Virus record (IMG/VR): IMGVR_UViG_3300044645_002685
Span: 1-20,067 of that record
Length of the DNA stretch: 20,067 bases
Direction: 5' to 3' (one strand)
Origin: a virus
Shown piece after piece: positions 1,186-17,750 of the stretch. Both the position numbers and the translations under genes were made by a program. A model generated the notes under the pieces. The model was given only the letters and a program-made list of their open reading frames with translations. It was not told the DNA's origin and ran no database searches. Numbering within the stretch: the stretch's first letter is position 1; each line of letters begins with the position of its first letter.

Positions 1186-1806
1186 TTATTTTGCTTTTTC
1201 TTGTCCCTGCACCAGCGTATGGTACGGCGCTCCCGTGTATGGGTCAAACTTAGCCGCAACTGAGATTGCTTTAATTGCCATTTTCCTTGCTACTGCCAGC
1301 GTGAGTTTGCCTTTTGGCTGTGCTGCATACAAGGCTCCCAGCGCGTACTGAGCACCAGTCCCTATGGCGAATATCCCACTTGAATCGGAAATCCATGAGT
1401 AGTCCCCATCAATTACATATATCGCCCCATTGATGGCCATGATGACCGTAGATGAGTGCTCGGCTATATGTGTCTTTGAGCCGTTGTCAGGTAGTGCGTA
1501 ACCATGTGATTCAAAGCATTCCCTTAAACTTGGGATAAATTTAGCTGTAACAAAGTGGTCCAGCTTCTTTCCTCTTAGTGTTGGGGTTGGGTTGGGAGGC
1601 GTGAATGCATGATGCAGGATATTGATTGCTCTTAAATCTCCGGCCGCGCCGAGCACGTACCGTCCATTTACACCTATCTTGCCGTTTGACTCCCTGAGAC
1701 TGACTATCTGTGATATCGGGCCCTCATCGCTATCAAGCGTTGATATACGCGAATCAGCCGTGACCACACAAAAGCCATCACCCTGAATCCCGATAATCGT
1801 TGTCAT
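1186..1806 (-). CDS. Proteasome beta / HslV-like Ntn-hydrolase
   Basis: This 206-aa protein begins Met-Thr-Thr-Ile. Met removal would expose an N-terminal Thr nucleophile as in HslV, with no propeptide. In mature numbering Asp17 and Arg19 fall exactly where 20S proteasome beta subunits have them (ADSR). A GAAGD segment matches the AGGxAD turn, IGTGAQYALGAL (residues 148-159) matches the SxGSGxxYAxG helix start, and DPYTG (188-192) matches the DxYSG motif holding Asp166 and Ser169. The catalytic Lys33 cannot be placed with certainty: the nearest Lys is residue 43. It would be expected to form a ring-shaped Thr protease or a derived hydrolase. It is last-but-one in an operon with a phosphoesterase and starts two bases after the preceding stop. 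Confidence 0.75.
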   Translation of the reverse strand: MTTIIGIQGDGFCVVTADSRISTLDSDEGPISQIVSLRESNGKIGVNGRYVLGAAGDLRAINILHHAFTPPNPTPTLRGKKLDHFVTAKFIPSLRECFESHGYALPDNGSKTHIAEHSSTVIMAINGAIYVIDGDYSWISDSSGIFAIGTGAQYALGALYAAQPKGKLTLAVARKMAIKAISVAAKFDPYTGAPYHTLVQGQEKAK

Positions 1807-6472: not shown

Positions 6473-7330
6473 TCACTGTAAAAAATTTAGGAATCTTTCG
6501 GAATACTTAATTTGCCCCAAGGCTCCAATGTGCCGGCCGTCAACACCTATTTCCCAGAAAGATTCAGTTTTTTCATTTGGTTTATATTTTGCTTTATTAA
6601 AAGCTTCTTCTGGTTCCTTAAGGTATCCATCAATTTTTGTAAATTCAAAAACCTCGTTGTCAGAATCATCCCATGAATAGAAAGCTAATTTTATCCCCAT
6701 TGCTTTACAAGCATTTGATATCTGAATTATTGAACTCAGTGAACTTTGGATACATGCTTTGAGTAGAAGATTTTGTCCATTTTTATTCTTTTCCAAAAAT
6801 CCATCGCCATCGTGGGACCAGAAACATCCAGCGTCTTCGTCCCATGAAAGCCGCTGCCTATATGGTTGCCCATCTACATAAATCCACTGTCTGGTTATTT
6901 CTGGAACCAATATAAGAAGATATTCAGGAGACCCATATTTTAATATGTATTCAAAAAACGCTGAAGCGATTTGAGGTATTGATGCACCAGGGAAAGCAAC
7001 ACTGTTTAGTGTCATCCCAGTTTTTTGTCGGATAATGTTGGGCCAAGCAAACTCGTCCCCAACCCCAACCCCAACCGTAACCGAGCAACCCATCGTGAGT
7101 ATTTTCGCACCAGGGATGAAATCCTGACCAATAACACCACTTGTATTTATCCTGTACTTAACATCAGGATGGGGCTTGTGAGAGCGAACCGTGTCGGTGA
7201 TTAAACCAGAAACTTCATATTCGGACTTGTATGTTCTAAAATCACCATCTGAGCAGAAACGCATTGTTCCGCTGTAAAACATGTTTTTAGCTATGTCAAG
7301 CGTTAATTGTTTCCTGTTTGGTTTTCTCAC
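6473..7330 (-). CDS. SGNH/GDSL-type hydrolase
   Basis: This 285-aa protein has the block I nucleophile in the form GCS (Gly81-Cys82-Ser83), followed by VTVGVGVGDEFAWPNII. It then has LNSVAFPGASIPQI, the Gly/Asn block region, and a C-terminal DGRH (264-267) supplying the Asp and His of the triad. Phage SGNH proteins of this type usually act as esterases or deacetylases on cell-surface polysaccharide or on virion glycans. The upstream NTSGVIGQDF stretch also fits this family. The start is GTG 7330, eight bases after TAGAAT on the same strand and without a Shine-Dalgarno, so translation may be leaderless; ATG 7282 is an alternative. It follows the giant surface protein by 21 bases. Confidence 0.8.
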   Translation of the reverse strand: MRKPNRKQLTLDIAKNMFYSGTMRFCSDGDFRTYKSEYEVSGLITDTVRSHKPHPDVKYRINTSGVIGQDFIPGAKILTMGCSVTVGVGVGDEFAWPNIIRQKTGMTLNSVAFPGASIPQIASAFFEYILKYGSPEYLLILVPEITRQWIYVDGQPYRQRLSWDEDAGCFWSHDGDGFLEKNKNGQNLLLKACIQSSLSSIIQISNACKAMGIKLAFYSWDDSDNEVFEFTKIDGYLKEPEEAFNKAKYKPNEKTESFWEIGVDGRHIGALGQIKYSERFLNFLQ

Positions 7331-7351: not shown

Positions 7352-10300
7352 TTATTCGCTGTCTGGCTCTTTCATGTGAAGGTACATCGCGCATGCAAAT
7401 GCGATTGAAGTACCCCACAGTGCAACCTGTTGGGTGAATCCGGAGAGCGTGAAGTACATAACCACAGCTCCAGCAAGAGTGAATCCAGAGGCCATCACTC
7501 CATAAACAAACTTCTTAGTGAAATTCTTCCAGTCCATAACTCTCACTCCATCCTCGTATTTGTAAATAGATATCCGCTTAATCCATTCAGGACCTTCGCC
7601 CTCAATGGCTCCACCTTCCTCGGCTTCCTCATCTTCCCTGCGAACCGCAACGTCTTGTCTTGGGCCAGATGGGTTAGATGGGCTAGAGCCTGGGGTTGGT
7701 ATTCCACCAGCAGCAGCGGCTAGAGCCACAGTACTGGTCACCAAGTTTACCGCAATTACGCTTCTTCTTGTACCAACATCTATGGAAGAACCCAATGCGG
7801 TATACGTATCAAACACTCCGGCGAATACGTTGATTTCTTCTTCAAATGATTCCTTAACATCGGTTGGCGCCTCGGTGAGTGCTTCTGAAATCGCGGCACC
7901 AGCTTCTTCTGAAACCTCAGCAACAACGATTGCGTTAAACACTGCGGATGCTTGTTCGCCGTCAATGCTTTCAAGAACCTTGGAGCTTGTTGCAAGTTCG
8001 GTTGCTTGTCCAGACTCGATGCCACCCTCTTGCTCAATTACCAACGTAACGACTTGTCCAACCTGCTCGCTCGTAATTGTGTCGGATTCCAACACATCCA
8101 CGATTACTCCGACCGATTCAGCGTCTAGTTCATTACCCAAGACAGCGGTGAAGGTTTCAATCAAAACCTCGTTGCTTACTTCTTCGTCAAAGACCGCACC
8201 AAGAACAGTGTTCAACAACTCTGAGGTGAGTTCTTCCTCCAACACATCAACGATGAGGTCAATGGTTTCTGCGTCGGAAAGGTCACTGTCAAACACGCTG
8301 TCAAAGATTGCTTCTGTTTCTGACGCGCTTAGGTTTGTTTCAAGCAAGTCTCCAAGTACGGTCATAGTGTCCGCAACCGATATATCTTCGTCAAATACGG
8401 CTGCCATAACTGTGTCTAGGTCGCCAGAACTAAGCGGACCATCAAAGATTGACACCAAAGCCGACACCATATTCTCAGCAGAAGTATCTTCTGAGAACGC
8501 TGAATCCAAAACTGCCGTCAACTGTGCGCTAGTGATGTCTGCATCCAGCATCGTCGTCAGTGCTTCGGTGAATACATCTGCCGAAACATCTTCGGTAAAG
8601 ACGGCTTCTAGAACATTGTCAAACTGGGTGTTGGTAAGTTCTGCACCAAGGAGTGTGTCAAGAACAGCGCCAACCTCGTCAGCCTCAATATCGGCAGTGA
8701 ATGTATTTTCAAGAATATTGTCCAATATGACTGTCGTGATTGGCTCGTTGTCTTCTATGTCTGTGACGGTATAATCATCTGGTGGAATTATTATTACTAC
8801 CGTTTCGGTTTCTGTTGGGTCTATTCCAATTGGTTCTGAGTATTCTGGAATTGTTTCTGTTGGCAGTTCGATTCCAGTTCCTGTTTCTACGGGAAGCGGC
8901 ACCGTTGTGGATTCTGTTTCAGGCTCTGGGTATTGCGGGAGTGGCACTGTTGTACCGTATGGGGGAGTCACGACGACAGGAGCGACAGTCGTACTGGTCG
9001 TAGTTGTAGTAGTAGATGAAGTGGGTGTCGGGTCAAGAACAGTTGCATCAACGGTTACTTCAGGTCCATAGGTGCAACTACCAGTTCCAACCCCAGCACA
9101 CCCAGCCGTCATTGCTTTGATGCCGAAACGAACGGGTCCATATCCTGTTGTGACAGGATTACTGCCAGAGAACATCCCGGTGCTCAACGAGTAGTTGGTT
9201 CCTTGATTGGTCCAAACTCCCCAACCACCTGATTGTGCTCCACCAATTACGGTGAGGTCGTAGAAACTAACTGAGTAACCGTAGATAGAAGCATTACTTG
9301 CCGCCGACGCATCCCAATCAAGGTCAACACTTCCATCTGTGTTCGCAACGGCAGTCAGGTTTGTAACTGGATTAAGGTACGCCGCAGTAATCGTGTTGTT
9401 GGACTCGACATATCCAGAGCCTGAGAAATTGTTTGTGTTTTGCGCAGTAGTGCCAAATGTGTTTCCACTGGCTGTAGAGAACGAGTTCGCACTTGCTCCG
9501 TTGTATAACGAAGAGCCGTTATTCCAATTGTTTGCAAATTGAATAGCGGTGGTGTTGCCATTGAATGTATTACCTGAAACCATTTGATTGCCAGCGCCAA
9601 CCGTCCAAGAGGTGGGAATCCATGATGAGAAAGACACGCCAACACCGTTTGAAGTAAATGTCGAATTTAGAACTTGCTGACGGTTGAGCCCTCCTAAATA
9701 TGCACCAAACTGTGTGTTTCCTGTGAACTGGCTGTTATTTATTTTGACAAAGCGCTCGGTACGAATACCATAAGTATTTGATGTAAATGTAGAGCCATTG
9801 ACATAAATACGATTTGAGTAATCAGTATCCGTAAGGCTTAAGGCCGACGGGGTACCACCATGGTCAGAGGTAATTGCATAACCATTATTGGTGAATTGTG
9901 AATCATTGAATGTGGTAACTCCACCGCCGCCTTGGTAGAAAGCCCACGATGAATGATTGGAAATTTTTATCCGATTGAACGTCATTGTTCCGGAGGCGTT
10001 GTAAATAAGACCACCGTTCCATGACACATTTTTACCTTGCTTGAATGTCATGTCTTCAATAACAATTGTTCGTGCACCACTGTTGTAAATTGCTCGCCAC
10101 AAATTGTTTCCATCAATAATCGTCGTAGCCATACCTGTTCCGGTAATTGTTACGTCATCAGTAATCGCGGGCAGGTCAGAAGTAAGGGTGATTGTTCCAG
10201 TGTTTCCTGGAGCAAAGGTAATCGTGTTAATAGTGGCTGAAGCGTTTGCTGTAGTGATGGCCCAACGTAAAGAACCAGAGTCAGAGGTATCTGAGAGATT

Positions 10301-11692
10301 TTCAACAATGACAGATGTTAGGGCTGGAACCGTGATTGACGCAGCCGAGTTTGCCGTTAGTGAACCAATTGAGTTTGTTTTGGTTACGGCTACTCGTATT
10401 TGTTTCGCAACATCACCCGAACCAATTGTGTATGTTGAGGATGTTGCGCCAGATATATTTGTCCATGTGCACGAAGAAGGGGTGCAGGATTGCCACTGAT
10501 AGGTTGTCGCAGTTACAGCAGAGCCACCGTCACCCCAGGTTCCATCGACTGCGGTCAGAGTTTCTCCATACTCAATAGTTCCAGACATTGATGTTCCACC
10601 AGATGTTGTGGGAGCAGTGGCCCCTGCAAGCAAAGCAAACGACCGACTTACCGTGGATGCTGATACGTATGAGTTATTAGAAGAACTATTTGCGGAGATA
10701 GTGCAAGTTCCTGTTTGGTTAGCCAACACCGTCACCGTTGCAGTTGAAGTTCCACCACTATCAGTTGACGAGCCAACGGTGCATTTGCCTGTAGTGCTGG
10801 ATGTAAAAGTAACCGACAGTCCAGAAGTGGCAGTGGCTGAGACAGTAAATGTCTGGTTTGACGAAGAGGCAACTATGTCGGCAGGCTGAGCGAAGGTAAT
10901 AGTGTTTGCGCTGGCTACAGATATTGCTGAGTCAATATACATTGATGCACCAAGGACTTGACCGCCCGTTGCGTCATAGGAACCATTAACGAACCTAAAT
11001 CTGTAATAACCAGTAGATGGGACTATGCCACTAGACGTAACCCAACCTTGGTTTTGCCCGCGTCCATATGAAACCAAAGTTGAAGTAGCACTAGAGCCAT
11101 AGTCGTATGAGTTCCCACTTGCAGAAACCTCAACCAAGTACCCGTATGCTTCGTAGTCGTCACCACCACCAGCGGCGGCCCAGTCAAAAGAAATTGATTG
11201 ATTTGCCGTGGCAGGAAACGGCTCGGTCCATATCTCTGGCCCAAACGCCGAACCGTATGTTCCATGACTATCACAAGTATTGCCATAGGAAATAGTGCCA
11301 GAAGAGAAGAGACGAATTACTCCACTACGTCCACCATATTCCTGTCCTGTAGATGTGGAGTAAGACAGGTTCTGGGTGGTCGCTTCTTGGCCTTCGTACA
11401 ACTGCTGTTCTCGCGTGTAGTCCTTGTCGGTTACATAGGAGTAGGAACTATTGGATGCGGAGTCGGTGCCAGTCATCGTGTATGGACCAATCCCCTGCTT
11501 GCCCAGAACCTTGCATTGGGTTCGGCTTGCCAACGAACCTAGGGTTACTTTTGCCGCCGTAGTTGACTCAAAAACAGGCGACAATGCCTGAACTGGCGAA
11601 GAAAAGCCAAAAATCGATACCAGTAAAAGGAATACCGAAGGAACAGCCATGATTAATGCGGGCTTATTAACGCGGCGACGCCGTACGAACAT
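7352..11692 (-). CDS. Giant secreted, membrane-anchored multidomain surface protein (1446 aa)
   Basis: A positively charged signal peptide (RRRR, then LIMAVPSVFLLLVSIFGF) has a likely cleavage after VQA36. A jelly-roll-like domain follows (about 37-255, with SFDWAAAGGGDDYEAYGYLVEV), then two Ig-like domains (about 260-356 and 358-455) and a right-handed beta-helix typical of adhesins or polysaccharide binding (about 460-775). Next come a fibronectin-III-like domain (about 775-880), a Thr/Pro-rich linker (about 885-985), six exact-length 34-residue helical repeats (1004-1207), an acidic segment, and two C-terminal transmembrane helices (about 1395-1440). AAGGAGG lies four bases before ATG 11692. 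It may be a surface-displayed adhesin or fibre. A signal peptide plus membrane tail is unusual for a virion protein and may instead mark the infected cell. Confidence 0.85.
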   Translation of the reverse strand: MFVRRRRVNKPALIMAVPSVFLLLVSIFGFSSPVQALSPVFESTTAAKVTLGSLASRTQCKVLGKQGIGPYTMTGTDSASNSSYSYVTDKDYTREQQLYEGQEATTQNLSYSTSTGQEYGGRSGVIRLFSSGTISYGNTCDSHGTYGSAFGPEIWTEPFPATANQSISFDWAAAGGGDDYEAYGYLVEVSASGNSYDYGSSATSTLVSYGRGQNQGWVTSSGIVPSTGYYRFRFVNGSYDATGGQVLGASMYIDSAISVASANTITFAQPADIVASSSNQTFTVSATATSGLSVTFTSSTTGKCTVGSSTDSGGTSTATVTVLANQTGTCTISANSSSNNSYVSASTVSRSFALLAGATAPTTSGGTSMSGTIEYGETLTAVDGTWGDGGSAVTATTYQWQSCTPSSCTWTNISGATSSTYTIGSGDVAKQIRVAVTKTNSIGSLTANSAASITVPALTSVIVENLSDTSDSGSLRWAITTANASATINTITFAPGNTGTITLTSDLPAITDDVTITGTGMATTIIDGNNLWRAIYNSGARTIVIEDMTFKQGKNVSWNGGLIYNASGTMTFNRIKISNHSSWAFYQGGGGVTTFNDSQFTNNGYAITSDHGGTPSALSLTDTDYSNRIYVNGSTFTSNTYGIRTERFVKINNSQFTGNTQFGAYLGGLNRQQVLNSTFTSNGVGVSFSSWIPTSWTVGAGNQMVSGNTFNGNTTAIQFANNWNNGSSLYNGASANSFSTASGNTFGTTAQNTNNFSGSGYVESNNTITAAYLNPVTNLTAVANTDGSVDLDWDASAASNASIYGYSVSFYDLTVIGGAQSGGWGVWTNQGTNYSLSTGMFSGSNPVTTGYGPVRFGIKAMTAGCAGVGTGSCTYGPEVTVDATVLDPTPTSSTTTTTTSTTVAPVVVTPPYGTTVPLPQYPEPETESTTVPLPVETGTGIELPTETIPEYSEPIGIDPTETETVVIIIPPDDYTVTDIEDNEPITTVILDNILENTFTADIEADEVGAVLDTLLGAELTNTQFDNVLEAVFTEDVSADVFTEALTTMLDADITSAQLTAVLDSAFSEDTSAENMVSALVSIFDGPLSSGDLDTVMAAVFDEDISVADTMTVLGDLLETNLSASETEAIFDSVFDSDLSDAETIDLIVDVLEEELTSELLNTVLGAVFDEEVSNEVLIETFTAVLGNELDAESVGVIVDVLESDTITSEQVGQVVTLVIEQEGGIESGQATELATSSKVLESIDGEQASAVFNAIVVAEVSEEAGAAISEALTEAPTDVKESFEEEINVFAGVFDTYTALGSSIDVGTRRSVIAVNLVTSTVALAAAAGGIPTPGSSPSNPSGPRQDVAVRREDEEAEEGGAIEGEGPEWIKRISIYKYEDGVRVMDWKNFTKKFVYGVMASGFTLAGAVVMYFTLSGFTQQVALWGTSIAFACAMYLHMKEPDSE
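8072..8683 (-). repeat. Six tandem 102-base units encoding 34-residue helical repeats
   Basis: Six consecutive units, each exactly 34 residues, share the pattern xxxxxxxLxxLLxxxLTSxxLxxVLxxVFxEDxS, for example the ends AVFTEDVS, SAFSEDTS, AVFDEDIS, SVFDSDLS and AVFDEEVS. Each unit is made of two similar 17-residue halves, so it probably folds as a two-helix hairpin and the array as an acidic alpha-solenoid. The DNA copies have diverged strongly, which points to old duplication under selection for length. Confidence 0.85.
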
Positions 11693-11773: not shown

Positions 11774-12655
11774 ATGGCCAACAATAGATTCGGAAAAATT
11801 CTTCCGATTTCAATTTATGACATCGAATTGATGTCTTTGAATAATGAAAAAAGTGACTTGTTGTCAAAAAGAAAAGGGAAAGTAACCCTTATTTTCAATG
11901 TCGCTGCTGGATGCGGGAACATACCCCAACACTCAATAATTGAAGAGCTAAACCAAAGATACAAGAATGAGGATGATTTCAGCATTCTCGCCGTAGTAGT
12001 TGATGACTTTACATGTCACGGGTATCCAGAGTTCCAAAATGGCATAAAGTCATATATTGAAGAAAACAGTCTTGAACTTACCCCTGGTCAAGTGGCAAAA
12101 AAATATGCTGTTGACAATTTCGGAGTGACATACGAGTTCTCTGAACTAACAAATGGAAGATACGACAAGCATAGATACGACAAGAGTTTTGTTCCTGGAC
12201 TTGTCAAAGAGCAGGAGCAACACACGCTCTGGCACTATCTGACAGGAGCATACGAAGCTGAAATAAACCCAGAAAATGGTTTGCCGTATCATTCAGAAGA
12301 AGTGCCTTGGTCAGAAGTTGAGCCGATTGATATTACAAATAAAAAAACATTCCCACCACTTCGAGGAAACTTTGAGAAGTTCTTAATCGACAGAACTGGA
12401 ACAAAAATTAAAAGATATGCAAATGGCTTCCTTCTCGGTGAAAGGGACCAGATAGGTGCAACTTTTCCCTGGGTGCAAGAAAAATATCAAGAAAATGGGA
12501 AACGTGACTGGAATCCAGTTATTACACCGCAAGAGAATCAGCAAACAACACCCAAAGGCCAACATTCAAGTTGGCCCACAAAAGAACAAAGAAACGGTAT
12601 TGACTTTTCTCTTGATTCAATCAGTAAAGACATAGATGAGTATTTAGGAAAATAA
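11774..12655 (+). CDS. Glutathione-peroxidase-like protein with altered active site
   Basis: This 293-aa protein keeps the thioredoxin-fold hallmarks of glutathione peroxidases: GKVTLIFNVAAGCG (35-48) places Cys47 at the peroxidatic position, HTLWHYLTG (150-158) matches the HPLYKFLxx segment, and GNFEKFLIDRTG (198-209) matches WNFxKFLVDxxG. Of the usual tetrad, Cys47 and Asn199 remain, but the Gln of the NQF motif is Asp78 (VDDF) and the Trp is Gly198. An extra Cys81 lies near the lost Gln and could serve as a resolving or substitute residue. A tail of about 75 residues (219-293) is not part of the family. It is the only plus-strand gene between two long minus-strand operons, with its own leaderless-type promoter. 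Peroxidase activity is uncertain; a redox or disulfide role is possible. Confidence 0.75.
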   Translation: MANNRFGKILPISIYDIELMSLNNEKSDLLSKRKGKVTLIFNVAAGCGNIPQHSIIEELNQRYKNEDDFSILAVVVDDFTCHGYPEFQNGIKSYIEENSLELTPGQVAKKYAVDNFGVTYEFSELTNGRYDKHRYDKSFVPGLVKEQEQHTLWHYLTGAYEAEINPENGLPYHSEEVPWSEVEPIDITNKKTFPPLRGNFEKFLIDRTGTKIKRYANGFLLGERDQIGATFPWVQEKYQENGKRDWNPVITPQENQQTTPKGQHSSWPTKEQRNGIDFSLDSISKDIDEYLGK

Positions 12656-12656
12656 T

Positions 12657-13931
12657 CTAAATATCTCTATCTGCTATCTTTCTTTTTTCTACTGGCTCAA
12701 GTCTTCCGTGATGCTTTGCTTCTCCGTCTTTTCTAACCCATGTCATACCATAGGTTGATTCAAGGTTCTCTGTTCCTTCTCTGCGCAACAGTCTCTCCGC
12801 CATTGACTGGAATGTTGGGTCATCGCTGAGATTCAGGTAAGAGTTGTGTGACCAAGGAAGGTCGTAGAAGGCTGGAGCATTGACCAAAAGAGCTCCCGCA
12901 GTCGTCCAATGCTCTTCTATTCTTGGATTTTCATGAACAATTGGACCCGATAGGCAATATGCAGGAACATCTATTCCTACAAGTGGCCTGTTCACTTCAA
13001 GCATTTTTTCAATAGCTACTGAATCAAGTGACATGTCCGAATCTATATACAGAACTGCTGAGTAATTTGCAACTCCATAGTTCAATTCGGTGCAGTCTTC
13101 ACCCCAATGGTGACCACTTGTTATTCTGTTTCTTTGAGCAAATTCCCTAATTAGGTTTCTTCCAGTCTCTATGCGAATCCATCTATTGCCGGAATCAACT
13201 TTTTTTTGCATGTCATTTATCGAATATGTCCAGTAATCTCCATTGACTTCTTTTAGTGCTTCAATCACTTCATGGAAAGGTTCTATTCCTCGGTTGTCTA
13301 ATTCAAATGAAGCAAACCATTTAACGTTTGGGAACTTCCTACAAATCTCTGCTCTATCGGCCATCCAGTTCATGTGCTCTTTGGCATCACACTTCCATGC
13401 AACCAATGGAGTACCGATAACAAAATGTTTTTCGTAATCAATTGGCTTCAGTACTGGTGATTCGGAAAGTTTGTATTTAGGTTTGTTTAACTCTGCAACA
13501 AAATCTGAACAAACACCGGAGTATTGAATTTTCCAGTCAGAATCCATCTCCCACCAAGATGTTTCTGGAAGCACCTTTATGCATTTCTTTGAACTTGCTT
13601 TTTTCCCAGGAAATGCCCAAACATAACCCCTGCTGGTAATCGTATAGTCGTCCGTGTTATGGAAGAAACAATGCAAATCATTTTGCATGGAAAAAGCTAA
13701 TGCTTCTGCATTTTTGCAATGAATCCATATTTGGTCAGTTCTATCAATGAGCCATTGATGTGGAACTGAATATTGCGGACCGTCATGCCCTAGGGAAGTT
13801 CCAAATTCATTAACCCACAAGTCAACCTCAACATCAAACCCACGCTCAATTGCTTCTTCTATGTATTTTGGATTATTTTCAAGTTCTGGTTTGGGTCCGT
13901 GCAGGTTGCCCCTGTGAGATATATAAATCAT
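12657..13931 (-). CDS. GDPD-like phosphodiesterase domain fused to a GT-A glycosyltransferase
   Basis: I take ATG 13931, which overlaps the methyltransferase stop as ATGA, giving 424 aa. Residues 1-145 follow the glycerophosphodiester phosphodiesterase plan: SHRGN (His6, Arg7), ENNP, DVEVD (Glu35, Asp37), LGHD (His49) and HCKN (Lys73). Residues about 168-410 resemble a GT-A sugar transferase: GTPLVAWKCD start, ETGRNLIREFAQRN, and a DSD metal motif (297-299, LYIDSDMS), followed by TAGALLVNAPAFYD. The pair suggests making or editing a glycan with a phosphodiester link such as glycerol-phosphate; this is inference. It is the last gene of the glycan operon and ends two bases from the convergent peroxidase-like gene. 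Confidence 0.75.
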   Translation of the reverse strand: MIYISHRGNLHGPKPELENNPKYIEEAIERGFDVEVDLWVNEFGTSLGHDGPQYSVPHQWLIDRTDQIWIHCKNAEALAFSMQNDLHCFFHNTDDYTITSRGYVWAFPGKKASSKKCIKVLPETSWWEMDSDWKIQYSGVCSDFVAELNKPKYKLSESPVLKPIDYEKHFVIGTPLVAWKCDAKEHMNWMADRAEICRKFPNVKWFASFELDNRGIEPFHEVIEALKEVNGDYWTYSINDMQKKVDSGNRWIRIETGRNLIREFAQRNRITSGHHWGEDCTELNYGVANYSAVLYIDSDMSLDSVAIEKMLEVNRPLVGIDVPAYCLSGPIVHENPRIEEHWTTAGALLVNAPAFYDLPWSHNSYLNLSDDPTFQSMAERLLRREGTENLESTYGMTWVRKDGEAKHHGRLEPVEKRKIADRDI

Positions 13932-14635
13932 TTTTCCACCTGAACCCATATCCAGTTTTTGTGATTATCACCAGGTCCTGTGTCACGTATGTCTGATTTA
14001 TAGTTTGTAAAACCAATTTCCCCTATTAGGTCGTCAACAAGTGATTGCTCATCCTTCACGCTTACGTCAGAGTGTCCGTTTGTGCTTCCGGCGTCATAGT
14101 TGTTGTCGTAGTAATCAGCAGTTGGAATTTCACCCTTTCCGCCGTATCCCATCTGGAAACACAACTTGCCGCCCGGCTTTAGAACTCTGAATATGTCCTT
14201 CAAGATGTTGAATCTAATTTCGTGGACACAAATGTGTTGGAAACATATAACTGCGAATACAACATCGTATGATTCATCAGCAATAGCTGAAAGATTATCT
14301 CCACTCGTAACATATAAGTGTGGCTCTGAAATATTGTTTGCTTTTGTATTGATTCTGGCTTTTTCTATATTTACATCAGATATATCAATTCCGTCAACTC
14401 GAGCAAACCTGTCTGCAAACTTGACCAAGTTTCGTCCAGGGCCACATCCGTACTCAAGAGCGATAAGACCATTAGTGTCAAAGTCCTTGAATAAAAAATT
14501 GTCATAATCCGACCAGTTGTTATGAGCGTCATACGAGCCGACAACTGGGTCCCTAAAATCCAGCGACCACTTCGATGCATATTCGTCGTAATAAGAATTC
14601 TGCATATCTAGATAATCTTTTTTGTTCTTGCTCAT
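13928..14635 (-). CDS. Class I SAM-dependent methyltransferase
   Basis: The start ATG 14635 overlaps the upstream stop as ATGA, giving 235 aa; a longer frame to 14686 is not needed. Motif I is LEYGCGPGRNL (60-70), the acidic residue binding the SAM ribose is Asp84 in VDGIDIS, and motif IV is YDVVFAVICFQHI, with the DIFRVLKPGGKLCFQ post-motif that is classic for this fold. The acceptor is not evident. Within a glycosyltransferase operon, O-methylation of a sugar is the simplest reading, as in rhamnan or capsule caps. It ends with an ATGA overlap into the GDPD-GT gene. Confidence 0.9.
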   Translation of the reverse strand: MSKNKKDYLDMQNSYYDEYASKWSLDFRDPVVGSYDAHNNWSDYDNFLFKDFDTNGLIALEYGCGPGRNLVKFADRFARVDGIDISDVNIEKARINTKANNISEPHLYVTSGDNLSAIADESYDVVFAVICFQHICVHEIRFNILKDIFRVLKPGGKLCFQMGYGGKGEIPTADYYDNNYDAGSTNGHSDVSVKDEQSLVDDLIGEIGFTNYKSDIRDTGPGDNHKNWIWVQVEK

Positions 14636-16005
14636 TTGTTGTTCTCCAAGTAGTAATTCAGGTCTTCCGGCGTTCCAATTCCCCACATTTTAGGGACTTC
14701 TTTAATTCGAATCTTTTTGCCATCCTGAATGGCTTCATTAAATACTGGGCAGACATAAAACTCATTATTGGTTCTAATGTCTTTTTCAATCATTTGATTT
14801 GCATATTTGACATAATCAGAACCATGTTTCCAGTAGTAAATACCTACAGTTGCATTATCTGAAATTGGGTTTTTTTCTGCAACTTCATCCACCAGGCCAT
14901 CATCCCCTAGCTTCGCGTATGACCACTTTGGGTGGGTGGCCTTGAATGTGAGGATTCCACCATCAACGCCTTCCGCACCAAATGCGTACAAACACTCGTT
15001 GCTATTCCAATCGACTATCTGGTCAGAGTTGGCCATCAGTAATGGTTCATCGTTATCTATTAGTCCAGACGCAAGTAGGGTCGTGCATGCGGCGCCCTCT
15101 GTCATTCCGTCAACCAGAACGATGTCACACCCTGGCTTGATGAGTCCTAAAACCTGTTTCAAGTTGTATTTCTCGTAGTGCTCTTTTTGTACAAGAAAAA
15201 TAAAATGAGCGTCTATGTTTAGATTCTCGACGACTACCTGAATCATTGGTTTACCGTTGACTTCAATTAGAGGCTTCGGAAATGTGTAGCCAGCTTGCGC
15301 AAATCTAGAGCCGGCTCCTGCCATTGGTATCAAAACATTCATTTTTTCATTCCTCCAAGCAACAGGCTTTTTGCCTCTATTTTCTATTTCATCAACAAAA
15401 CGCATTAACCGTTGTTTATTAAGGTCTGCGGCATTTTTTATTGCATGAAGGTTTGCGCCAGAACTAAGCGCACCTTCTCTACCGATATGAGAATCCTCAA
15501 TAATTATAGTATTTGCAGGACTTGCATCAAGGGAGACCATGCATTGCCAGTACATTTCTGGGTGTGGCTTGTGATTTCTCACGTCCTCGTTGCTCATTAT
15601 GTAACTGACGTATTTGAGAACCCCAATTGCATCCAGGGCGGTTATGACCGTGTCTCTTATGGCGTTTGAGGCAACAGCAATACGCCAGCCCTTTTCCTTC
15701 AGGGTCTGCATTATGTCAATTGCTACGTAGTTCTTAGGGAAATCTGAAAGTATTTTTAGAGTGGCTTTTTGTTTGTCTTCCCAGATTTGTTGATGTTTTG
15801 ATTCTGGAAGGCCTTTTTCTTCGGTCAACATCTTTAGCTTTGTAGTTGTCCCAAGGCCGTCATATTTGGACAGGTGTTCTTCTTGCGAAATTACGTATTT
15901 AACATCAACTCTGCTTAGGGCAATATTCAGTGAATCATAATGAACGTCGCGTGACTCAATCAAAACCCCATCAAGGTCAAAGATGACAAGAAAGTTACTT
16001 TTCAT
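14632..16005 (-). CDS. HAD phosphatase fused to a sugar-phosphate nucleotidyltransferase
   Basis: From ATG 16005 (457 aa; the first 11 bases overlap the previous gene) residues 1-205 are a HAD phosphatase of the beta-phosphoglucomutase type: FDLDGV (Asp10, Asp12), ASNA (112-115), HKPHPEMY with Lys146, and IIEDSHIG with Glu170-Asp171. Residues 222-457 are a sugar nucleotidyltransferase: MNVLIPMAGAGSRF (222-235), FPKPLIEVNGKPMI with Lys244, MANSDQIVDW, and a C-terminal WGIGTPEDL. Together they could convert a sugar-phosphate precursor into an NDP-sugar for the neighbouring glycosyltransferases. The junction is unusual: GGAGG and ATG 15342 would give a stand-alone 236-aa nucleotidyltransferase, and the fusion rests on a run of six A. 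Confidence 0.88.
   Translation of the reverse strand: MKSNFLVIFDLDGVLIESRDVHYDSLNIALSRVDVKYVISQEEHLSKYDGLGTTTKLKMLTEEKGLPESKHQQIWEDKQKATLKILSDFPKNYVAIDIMQTLKEKGWRIAVASNAIRDTVITALDAIGVLKYVSYIMSNEDVRNHKPHPEMYWQCMVSLDASPANTIIIEDSHIGREGALSSGANLHAIKNAADLNKQRLMRFVDEIENRGKKPVAWRNEKMNVLIPMAGAGSRFAQAGYTFPKPLIEVNGKPMIQVVVENLNIDAHFIFLVQKEHYEKYNLKQVLGLIKPGCDIVLVDGMTEGAACTTLLASGLIDNDEPLLMANSDQIVDWNSNECLYAFGAEGVDGGILTFKATHPKWSYAKLGDDGLVDEVAEKNPISDNATVGIYYWKHGSDYVKYANQMIEKDIRTNNEFYVCPVFNEAIQDGKKIRIKEVPKMWGIGTPEDLNYYLENNK
15342..15356 (-). promoter_or_regulatory. Internal Shine-Dalgarno and ATG at the domain junction
   Basis: On the minus strand GGAGG (15356-15352) lies nine bases before ATG 15342, the Met that begins the nucleotidyltransferase domain. 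A six-A run (15347-15342) sits between them. This permits separate translation of the second domain. Confidence 0.55.
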
Positions 16006-16651
16006 TTGGATTAGGCCCTGCGTGTCTATGCCACTTGTTGTGACGGACAATGCTTTTCCCATTGCACTTCATTACGTATTTATTCCGAACGCGCATGGAC
16101 CACTCGACGTCCTCTTCCTCGTTCCACCCACGCGATTCGTCAAGTGGCTCTTCAACCATCACGTGTTTCTTAAGCATAAAGAAACCGCCGGATATATACA
16201 TGTATTGAGTTTGTGTCCAGTCGTTGTATTCAAGCGACCAGGCGCGCCCGTGCCCTGGCTTATCCCATAGCGACCAATCCATTGGGTTTCTTTCCCCAGT
16301 AATCAAATATTGAGGGCATGAACATATTTCCCAGTCTTCCCCAAATGACTTAAATTCTTCATACCATTTCGAGTCGAATATGTGGTAGTCGTGCATCATT
16401 ACTATATTTTCGTATTTTGCATTCTGGGCAAGAATGTTTTTTTTGCGAGTAATCCATCGCGGCTTTATTGACTCATCAAAGTCAATCTTTACAATGTCAT
16501 CCCCTTCGATTCCAGATGAATCCCCTCCACCGACAAAAAGTATTTCGTATTCGGGAATTTTTAAATCACGGATGCTTTTTATAATTTCATCTAATCGATT
16601 TTTATCTTCGTATACAGTAATTATTCCAAATGTAAAAGAAATGTCTTTCAT
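15995..16651 (-). CDS. GT-A (family 2-like) glycosyltransferase, short
   Basis: This 218-aa protein opens FTFGIITVYEDKNRLDEIIKSI, the nucleotide-sugar-binding start of GT2-like enzymes. VGGGDSSG follows, then VMMHDYH (84-90) at the position of the DxD metal motif, YISGGFFMLKK, and WNEEEDVEWSMRVR, a typical acceptor-side ED motif. It lacks the long C-terminal extensions or membrane helices of processive GT2 enzymes, so a soluble single-sugar transferase is likely. AGGTG lies four bases before ATG 16651. It follows the GT-B gene by seven bases and overlaps the HAD-nucleotidyltransferase gene. Confidence 0.82.
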   Translation of the reverse strand: MKDISFTFGIITVYEDKNRLDEIIKSIRDLKIPEYEILFVGGGDSSGIEGDDIVKIDFDESIKPRWITRKKNILAQNAKYENIVMMHDYHIFDSKWYEEFKSFGEDWEICSCPQYLITGERNPMDWSLWDKPGHGRAWSLEYNDWTQTQYMYISGGFFMLKKHVMVEEPLDESRGWNEEEDVEWSMRVRNKYVMKCNGKSIVRHNKWHRHAGPNPNEK

Positions 16652-16658
16652 GAATCAC

Positions 16659-17750
16659 CTAAATTTTTTCCAAGATGACGCGCATTGTTGCATCCCAGTC
16701 ATCCCCTCTGGCGTTCATGTCAAATTTTTTTAACAATTCTCTGTTTTCATTCATTTCATCAATGCGCATTTGATGATTCATTAATTCGTCTAGGTGGTAA
16801 ACCCATTCTTCATCAGTTTTTGCCATTCTTCCAATTCCCTGACTGACCAGGAATTCGTATTCTGGAGAGTATGAGGTTATAAATGGGACCCCTGCGGCAG
16901 CGTATTCGAGTCCTTTTATGAATGATTTTGCGTGATTGAACTGTATGTTGTTTAGTGGAATTGTCCCGATATCCATATTGGAAAAAAGGCGTGGGTATGC
17001 CGATATTGGCGCCATTGGTGAATGTGTAAATCTTGTTTTATCAATCTTTAGTAAGTCGTGTACTGATGGCGCAGATGGTGAGTGTCCAGAATGATGGAAC
17101 TTTGTATTTCGTGATTTTAAATAATCATCCATGAAACCAGAAAGCTGCTCTAAGTCATTGGAGCGCCAGTGGGTAGCACCAACCCATCCAATATTTGATT
17201 TTTTAAGGTATCTAACTGAGCGTTTATTATACCTATCTGAATCGATTCCATTTCTTACCATAAAAACGTTATCGCGTTTTTTTGCGTAGTAATCAAATAG
17301 AAATGGCGTTGATGTAATAACGGCATCCGCCTGCATTATTATTTGTGCGTAAATATCCCTGTTGTTGTCCGGATTCTTTTTGGGGTCTGTTGCTTGAAAT
17401 GCTCTATTTGTCTCGGCAAGACCATCAAACCAGTCGTCGACATCAACTACCAATTTTTGCCCCATTGCTTGAGCGAGCGGCATTTTTTCCAACACTTCTC
17501 GTTGCATGAGTAGTTTAAAAACGATTATGTCCCAACCATGAACAGACCTACCGTCTGACATCAACATCCCAAATCCTTTATCTGCGCCATAACCAGGGAA
17601 TCCGACAGCAGTAAACCACCCACGCTTGTTCAGTTCATTGGAAGGAAGGGTGCATCTGTAGTAACAGCATCCATTTGGCTCAAGTGGCTCCGTCCCCCAT
17701 GCCCAGTCATGAGTCATGAAGCCAATTGTTGGTTTGTGTTGCTTCTTCAT
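16659..17750 (-). CDS. GT-B (family 4-like) glycosyltransferase
   Basis: This 363-aa protein is the first gene of the glycan operon. The C-terminal half has IGWVGATHWRSNDLEQL, then FIKGLEYAAAGVPFITSYSPEYEFL, the sugar-nucleotide-binding segment with two Glu residues typical of GT4 enzymes. Earlier come KLVVDVDDWFDGL (about 111-123) and ADAVITSTPFL, which mark the inter-domain region and the start of the second Rossmann fold. No membrane segment is seen. Its start at ATG 17750 lies behind a TATAAG -10-like box 13 bases upstream. It probably transfers one sugar, either to a virion protein or to a growing glycan; the acceptor cannot be told. Confidence 0.88.
   Translation of the reverse strand: MKKQHKPTIGFMTHDWAWGTEPLEPNGCCYYRCTLPSNELNKRGWFTAVGFPGYGADKGFGMLMSDGRSVHGWDIIVFKLLMQREVLEKMPLAQAMGQKLVVDVDDWFDGLAETNRAFQATDPKKNPDNNRDIYAQIIMQADAVITSTPFLFDYYAKKRDNVFMVRNGIDSDRYNKRSVRYLKKSNIGWVGATHWRSNDLEQLSGFMDDYLKSRNTKFHHSGHSPSAPSVHDLLKIDKTRFTHSPMAPISAYPRLFSNMDIGTIPLNNIQFNHAKSFIKGLEYAAAGVPFITSYSPEYEFLVSQGIGRMAKTDEEWVYHLDELMNHQMRIDEMNENRELLKKFDMNARGDDWDATMRVILEKI

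Follow-up and report, generated by a model that had tools for sequence, protein, structure and literature searches.

A predicted miniature GDPD-like barrel fused to a GT-A type glycosyltransferase in a viral glycan operon, and its recurrent HAD-nucleotidyltransferase partner

The nearest described counterparts of the protein reported here are the glycerophosphodiesterases (GDPDs, PF03009), for example TM1621 (PDB 1o1z) and a P. furiosus enzyme (7e0v), and AvrBs2, a GDPD-fold enzyme that is reported to convert UDP-galactose to a cyclic galactose phosphodiester with release of UMP (PMC12807533). The paper places AvrBs2 near agrocinopine synthase in the authors' phylogeny, and describes for it an additional motif specific to its family and a fifth catalytic residue that is acidic (PMC12807533). 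On the glycosyltransferase side, the GT-A enzymes PcManGT (6yv7), ColGalT1 (9evj), TarP (6h4m) and WrtF (9omh) have the fold and the DxD-type motif that are predicted for the C-terminal half of our protein. Two BFVD entries also bear comparison: a Homavirus protein titled 'Methyltransferase FkbM' (A0A3G5A5B5) includes a close relative of the N-terminal domain (41% identity over 155 columns) with a different partner domain, and a Bodo saltans virus 'Glycosyltransferase/phospholipase' (A0A2H4UUJ1) pairs both activities by name, with a weak match to the barrel (E 4.5e-3).

The DNA analysed, a virus record of 20,067 bases that we call the window, contains a WhiB gene (Pfam E 2.9e-14); because WhiB is cited as a key indicator of actinophages (PMC10202952), the host of the virus is probably an actinobacterium. 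Five genes of the window run head to tail on the minus strand as a glycan operon, listed here in order of transcription:

16659..17750, minus strand: probable GT-B glycosyltransferase, 363 aa (phrog_7162, glycosyltransferase, E 6e-34)
15995..16651, minus strand: probable GT-A type glycosyltransferase, 218 aa (Pfam Glycos_transf_2, E 0.0053, below cut-off)
14632..16005, minus strand: HAD (beta-phosphoglucomutase-like) domain plus sugar nucleotidyltransferase (profile and structure-database matches, neighbourhood counts); its longest open reading frame starts at 16062
13928..14635, minus strand: class I SAM-dependent methyltransferase (Pfam Methyltransf_11, E 1.4e-17); its longest open reading frame starts at 14686
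12660..13931, minus strand, stop codon at 12657-12659: GDPD-like / GT-A glycosyltransferase fusion protein, 424 aa (open frame, relatives, dN/dS)

The 363-aa protein also matches the NCBIfam model TuaH below its cut-off (E 3.1e-8). ATGA overlaps occur at both ends of the methyltransferase gene, which are the last two junctions of the run, and because the ATG at 13931 overlaps the methyltransferase stop in this way, we take the fusion protein as 424 aa rather than the 430 aa of the longest open reading frame. Other genes of the window include a glutathione-peroxidase/redoxin-like gene (11774-12655, plus strand, Pfam GSHPx E 4.5e-8) convergent with the operon, and a gene annotated as a peroxiredoxin lies near the corresponding module of cyanophage DSL-LC03 too. 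Also near the operon is a 1446-aa protein (7352-11692, minus strand) lacking any Pfam match over cut-off and having, by eye, an apparent signal peptide and C-terminal membrane segments. A 285-aa protein (6473-7330, minus strand) shows an SGNH-hydrolase-like GCS motif by eye, its Pfam and PHROG matches being weak, and a proteasome-subunit-like protein is encoded at 1186-1806 (minus strand, Pfam Proteasome E 1e-7).

The initial annotation had placed a GDPD-like part and a DSD glycosyltransferase part in one gene at 12657-13931; those coordinates stand, and the strand is minus. The plus strand across the locus holds many stops, whereas the minus-strand frame is open. Each of 36 relatives translated over its full length (five of which are the window's own protein) is open throughout with a single terminal stop. 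Half by half, across seven relatives, dN/dS was 0.06-0.07 for the N half and 0.015-0.05 for the C half, these ranges covering the 7 of 14 comparisons in which dS was unsaturated. The protein has no match over the Pfam or NCBIfam cut-offs, and no single Pfam, NCBIfam or PHROG family spans both halves. A search of 50,697 phage records with the whole protein returned 16 matches, each confined to the small N-terminal domain, and the C half gave no tblastn match there at E up to 1. The suspicion that no standard enzyme has this pairing is borne out so far as these sources reach, in that phage records, Pfam, NCBIfam and PHROG yielded no named one; likewise no title or abstract opening among the open-licence PMC papers listed in literature searches names the fusion or the module. 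The small domain is already known as a PHROG with no assigned function. A Pfam Polycystin_dom match (E 0.011 for the window, 0.0024 for family members) is below cut-off and was taken as chance. A defence role was considered and set aside: PADLOC returned nothing for the fusion protein, and its match of the adjoining methyltransferase to mad2 (E 5e-19) is taken as reflecting the common methyltransferase fold.

Within the fusion gene the following features, all on the minus strand, are used below:

13482..13931, minus strand: miniature GDPD-like domain, residues 1-150 (phrog_34507, predicted model, GDPD structural matches)
13911..13916, minus strand: His6-Arg7 (109/109 rows covering it; aligned to GDPD His-Arg)
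13821..13829, minus strand: Glu35-x-Asp37, presumed metal ligands (110/110 rows; aligned to GDPD ExD)
13785..13787, minus strand: His49, presumed second catalytic histidine (110/110 rows; aligned to GDPD HD)
13713..13721, minus strand: His71-x-Lys73, at the place of GDPD (E/D)xK (His71 and Lys73 in 110/110 rows)
12660..13436, minus strand: predicted GT-A glycosyltransferase domain, residues 166-424 (Foldseek and VIA matches, best Z 15.1)
13035..13043, minus strand: Asp297-Ser298-Asp299, DxD-type motif (68/68 rows)

The predicted model of the N domain is a compact barrel (pLDDT 95.5, pTM 0.90) which, on the strength of that model, we assign to the GDPD-type TIM barrels. Its best Foldseek match in the PDB is the GDPD 7e2a (E 7.7e-4); with a second structural aligner 1o1z leads (Z 10.8, rmsd 3.2, 142 residues aligned), and the alignments to 1o1z and 7e0v take in the full model, with 142-143 of 150 residues at Z 10.6-10.8. 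The first 31 rows of this alignment list are by title GDPDs and related phospholipases D except for five, namely two beta-glucanases (Z 10.4 and 10.3), Protein D and two phage spike proteins, and below row 31 the first clearly different TIM barrel appears only at Z 7.3. Structure prediction of the two halves, which had been proposed as a check, thus gave GDPDs as the best PDB matches of the N half and a GT-A fold for the C half. At about 150 residues the domain is shorter than the top-ranked GDPD chains (217-254). By sequence, phrog_34507 (unknown function) matches it at E 2.5e-29 over residues 3-111 only, a PDB sequence search with the N profile returned nothing up to E 10, and the Pfam GDPD model has no match in the window protein, matches 1 of 34 family members (E 0.25) and finds nothing in G004, G006, G007 and G015, genomes that carry the small domain.

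The catalytic signature of GDPDs (HR, ExD and H(D)) is present in the N domain, as judged by alignment and conservation. A profile comparison with five canonical GDPDs aligns residues 2-51 at 93% probability and pairs His6-Arg7, Glu18-Asn19, Glu35-x-Asp37 and His49-Asp50 with their His-Arg, Glu-Asn, Glu-x-Asp and His-Asp counterparts. Our alignment of 110 small domains (sequences under 125 aa dropped, 111 to 110) has one row that lacks residues 4-12; across the alignment Glu18, Asn19, Glu35, Asp37, His49, His71, Lys73, Phe89, His91, Asp94, Thr99, Trp105, Cys141 and Asp143 are invariant, although relatives reach down to about 34-37% identity (phages, bacteria and one contig binned as archaeal). 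His6-Arg7, Glu35, Asp37, His49 and Lys73 thus sit where the annotation had put them and do not vary. The departure from GDPDs lies in the third acidic ligand: all five canonical enzymes have (E/D)xK, while the small-domain family has HxK with His71 in 110/110 rows, an equivalence of position that we take from order and strand because the profile alignment ends at residue 51. The domain is a miniature GDPD relative, probably with similar chemistry; we do not file it as a member of the GDPD family, since the third ligand differs at that presumed position and the Pfam threshold is not reached, and with no acidic third ligand its chemistry may differ from that of canonical GDPDs. Its setting also differs, in glycan clusters beside a nucleotidyltransferase.

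Set against AvrBs2, the small domain may have GDPD-type catalytic residues in common with it: His6, Glu35, Asp37 and His49 fit the AvrBs2 residues by pattern, and the further Asp of AvrBs2 may correspond to His71. AvrBs2 is reported to use a nucleotide sugar, and the phage domain is tied to a nucleotide-sugar enzyme through gene neighbourhood. It differs from AvrBs2 and agrocinopine synthase in being a minimal barrel in a biosynthetic operon.

The C half is assigned a GT-A fold on its predicted model, which aligns to 6yv7_B at Z 15.1 (rmsd 3.3, 192 residues) and falls below pLDDT 50 at residues 269-286 and 360-380. The DSD motif reported in this part is Asp297-Ser298-Asp299, found in 68/68 C-domain rows, a count that includes the window and its identical relatives; C sequences under 250 aa were dropped before counting (74 to 67). 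The wall-teichoic-acid glycosyltransferases TarP and RmlT (Z 13.0-13.6) stand among many near-tied GT-A folds. Unlike known GT-A enzymes, the window protein has no Pfam match over cut-off to GT2 (Glycos_transf_2) or GT8 (Glyco_transf_8). Among 15 C-half relatives one matches GT8 at E 0.0062 and none is listed for GT2, Pfam and PHROG matches being weak throughout (best phrog_1574, unknown function, 2e-4), and a PDB sequence search with the C profile returned one unrelated chain (E 0.59).

The fusion represents one of the forms taken by a stable gene pair, whose members elsewhere are separate neighbours, as follows from the counts of fused and split loci, the gene spacing and the changes in the tree. 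A whole-protein scan of viral contigs gave 40 loci, of which 39 carry the two halves as a single frame (three of these contigs are cut by their ends and several are near-identical) and the fortieth, L040, has the small domain only. Among the best 80 of 199 relatives of the GT half, 65 are fused, 15 have a separate small gene and no locus is without the small domain. Of the best 80 out of at least 588 small-domain relatives, 26 are fused, 28 are split and 26 have no visible GT half, some of these last contigs ending soon after the small gene. These counts, like those from the best 80 of at least 590 loci given below, lean towards the window's kin because only the best matches are covered. Split GT frames lie within 60 bases of the small gene in 34 of 43 cases, the scans overlapping so that some contigs are counted twice, and a tree of 67 GT halves requires at least two changes between fused and split. 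In three phages (L098, L099, L102) the nucleotidyltransferase is 98% identical to the window's and the small domain 53-54% identical and unfused, as though the small gene alone had been swapped.

Outside the window's phage family the small domain occurs by itself. The seven cyanophage records that were read carry it as a stand-alone reading frame of about 148-167 aa, annotated in one as a glycerophosphoryl diester phosphodiesterase. At 17 genome loci, titled SAR11, Methylophilaceae, Patescibacteria, Flavobacteria, Actinomycetales, Lokiarchaeota and others, it also stands alone with no GT fusion, among neighbours that by eye look like epimerases, transferases and flippases. These bin labels may err: L059 (Flavobacteriales) has the same gene order as two Pelagibacter contigs, L060 and L061, and L065 (labelled Planctomycetaceae) resembles cyanophage S-SM2 by eye. 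No GT half is seen at any of these 24 loci (seven cyanophage and 17 genome loci, L042-L065), so the small domain does not need one for its reaction. Searches for the C domain found none in the 17 genomes with the small domain, nor in 246 genomes from the same phylum as G006, empty answers that are uninformative for want of a positive control; the small domain occurs in one of those 246, G006 itself.

A HAD-nucleotidyltransferase is the steady partner of the small domain. Scored by BLASTP to the window's HAD and nucleotidyltransferase (NTP) halves anywhere in a locus, both halves are present in 77 of the best 80 of at least 588 viral small-domain loci, with the NTP half only in 2 and neither in 1. 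Both are likewise present at 12/17 genome loci and 4/7 phage loci, the remaining 5/17 and 3/7 having the NTP half only, some of these NTP relatives at about 30% identity. In the converse scan the small domain is present at 69 of the best 80 of at least 590 viral HAD-NTP loci, and nine of the 11 loci without it run out of contig within 760 bases downstream; L308 and L324 have room downstream yet no small domain. Across 197 genomes of the order to which the seed genome G012 belongs, called SAR11 here after the title of L060, the small domain occurs in 11 (E 1.1e-46 or better), the HAD-NTP protein in 11 (E 1e-60; nine matches over the whole length, two over the NTP half only) and both in 10, G012 among them (Fisher p 6e-15). 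In all 10 the two genes are adjacent, separated by 7-57 bases, with the small gene preceding the HAD-NTP gene, an order opposite to the window's. The discordant genomes are G273, with the small domain only, and G393, with the NTP half only and a weak small-domain match on another contig. Because glycan clusters often include nucleotidyltransferases, presence by itself says little; support for the partnership comes from adjacency and from co-occurrence across the 197 genomes.

A further 21 of the 197 genomes have weak small-domain matches only (E 1e-5 to 1e-3) and were left out of the 2x2 count; most of the 14 weak-match loci that were read resemble, by eye, ordinary GDPDs some 226 aa long. Three of the 14 (L239, L240, L245) encode shorter GDPD relatives of 196-220 aa with NxK for (E/D)xK (two NVK, one NIK), perhaps, by eye, intermediate between canonical GDPDs and the 150-aa family.

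The HAD half of the partner matches the beta-phosphoglucomutase model TIGR02009 at E 6.8e-26, below its cut-off; in the PDB the sugar-phosphate phosphatase 3kbb leads in a single-sequence search, so that this half could be a phosphatase, while beta-phosphoglucomutases lead in a profile search. The remainder of the partner is a sugar nucleotidyltransferase (PDB 4evw) of the RmlA/GlmU sugar-1-phosphate type. Both this partner and the existence of the pair as two adjacent genes go beyond what had been annotated.

Most likely the small domain acts in the cytoplasm on a nucleotide sugar or a derivative of one, a reaction on a nucleotide sugar or sugar-phosphate product being the likeliest in view of the active site, its strict conservation and the nucleotide-sugar-enzyme partner. 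The reading of the whole fusion that we favour, tentatively and with somewhat less than even confidence, is of a two-step enzyme that belongs to the phage's glycan-building operon and works in the cytoplasm on a nucleotide sugar or on a product carrying it. The HAD domain would yield a sugar-1-phosphate, from which the nucleotidyltransferase would make the nucleotide sugar. In the GDPD-like domain Glu35 and Asp37, perhaps with His71, would hold a divalent metal, with His6 and His49 as acid and base, and the domain would attack the sugar-phosphate bond of the nucleotide sugar, or of a product carrying that sugar phosphate. Either the sugar-phosphate would pass to a different hydroxyl, freeing a nucleoside monophosphate, or the bond would be hydrolysed; the GT half would then add another sugar to the product, the fusion keeping both steps together, and the completed glycan would be displayed on the host surface or on the virion. 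The full-length model places the two halves unreliably relative to each other (pTM 0.58), so that channelling between them is a guess. A synthetic, phosphodiester-making role for the small domain is plausible by analogy, given the published case of a GDPD-fold enzyme that uses a nucleotide sugar to form a sugar phosphodiester. The more specific proposal, that the domain is a nucleotide-sugar-dependent sugar-1-phosphate transferase that uses its partner's nucleotide sugar, joins a sugar-phosphate to another sugar and releases the nucleoside monophosphate, we regard as doubtful at this stage.

The small domain could instead act upstream, hydrolysing a glycerophosphodiester or sugar phosphodiester and passing the sugar- or polyol-phosphate to the HAD-nucleotidyltransferase for activation, the nucleotide sugar itself being left untouched. 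Canonical GDPDs hydrolyse phosphodiesters of this type, the catalytic plan is mostly kept, and the small gene comes before the HAD-NTP gene in the 10 SAR11-order genomes with both; however, an RmlA/GlmU-type nucleotidyltransferase and a HAD domain resembling hexose-phosphate mutases and phosphatases suit a hexose phosphate rather than glycerol phosphate, and the barrel is much shorter than in canonical GDPDs with its third ligand changed, so we judge such a supply of precursors possible but on the unlikely side. That the domain trims or proofreads phosphodiester links of a finished glycan to which the GT half adds sugar, in line with the first option of the annotation, would explain why it is fused to or co-occurs with the GT half in 80/80 loci (the best 80 of 199 in the GT scan). 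Editing of this kind seems distinctly unlikely when the small domain is spread more widely than the GT half and retains its nucleotidyltransferase partner without it, the GT half being unseen at 26/80 loci of the small-domain scan (where some contigs end) and at the 24 cyanophage and genome loci. If the domain were non-catalytic and served only for binding or as a scaffold, this would account for its reduced size and for the failure of the Pfam GDPD model to detect it; such a role is very improbable for a domain in which Glu35, Asp37, His49, Lys73, His71, His91 and Asp94 are invariant across 110 sequences and His6 across 109/109.

The annotation had also offered that the protein senses host-wall teichoic acid. 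The probable actinobacterial host and the presence of TarP and RmlT among the structural matches of the C half speak for sensing or cutting of that polymer. Those two are, though, only a pair among many near-tied folds; the first barrel strand starts at residue 2 in the model, which would leave no room for a signal peptide; the gene overlaps an operon of biosynthetic genes; and the domain occurs in viruses and bacteria of Gram-negative type, including Synechococcus phages, SAR11 and Methylophilaceae. Cyanobacteria (Synechococcus), SAR11 and Methylophilaceae are, to our knowledge, groups without classical teichoic acids. Sensing was dropped for the lack of signal-peptide room and the spread of the domain, and a role on teichoic acid of either kind has only a slender chance of being right. 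Relatives that carry the halves as overlapping or adjacent genes might suggest that the fusion is an assembly or sequencing artefact, a pseudogene or the result of a stop codon lost by chance. Against this stand the 47 different fused open frames (truncated copies among them), the low dN/dS and the two or more fused/split changes in the tree, which leave it next to no probability.

The module of HAD domain, nucleotidyltransferase and minimal barrel recurs in SAR11-order genomes, in marine and lake Synechococcus phages and in many other viral contigs. What it makes may therefore be widespread in surface glycans, which often decide phage attachment. For phrog_34507, an uncharacterised phage family, the analysis supplies a likely active site and a defined partner and so makes it an enzyme that can be tested. 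Should the barrel make phosphodiesters, it would exemplify in minimal form the kind of GDPD-fold synthase that was described in 2025. If the transferase proposal is true, it would provide a soluble minimal-barrel route to phosphodiester-linked glycans across phages, SAR11 and other microbes, the barrel in the window's phage family being fused to the glycosyltransferase that acts next.

Some clusters with the small gene and the nucleotidyltransferase also contain, by eye, a RuBisCO-like protein: a Pelagibacter contig (L051:2289-3545), a Patescibacteria contig (L053:8739-9914) and, in two frames, a viral contig (L040:8402-9577). In L053 and L040 a small cupin-like gene (by eye) occurs with it, and cupin-like genes appear by eye at the small-domain loci L047, L048, L049 and L134 as well.
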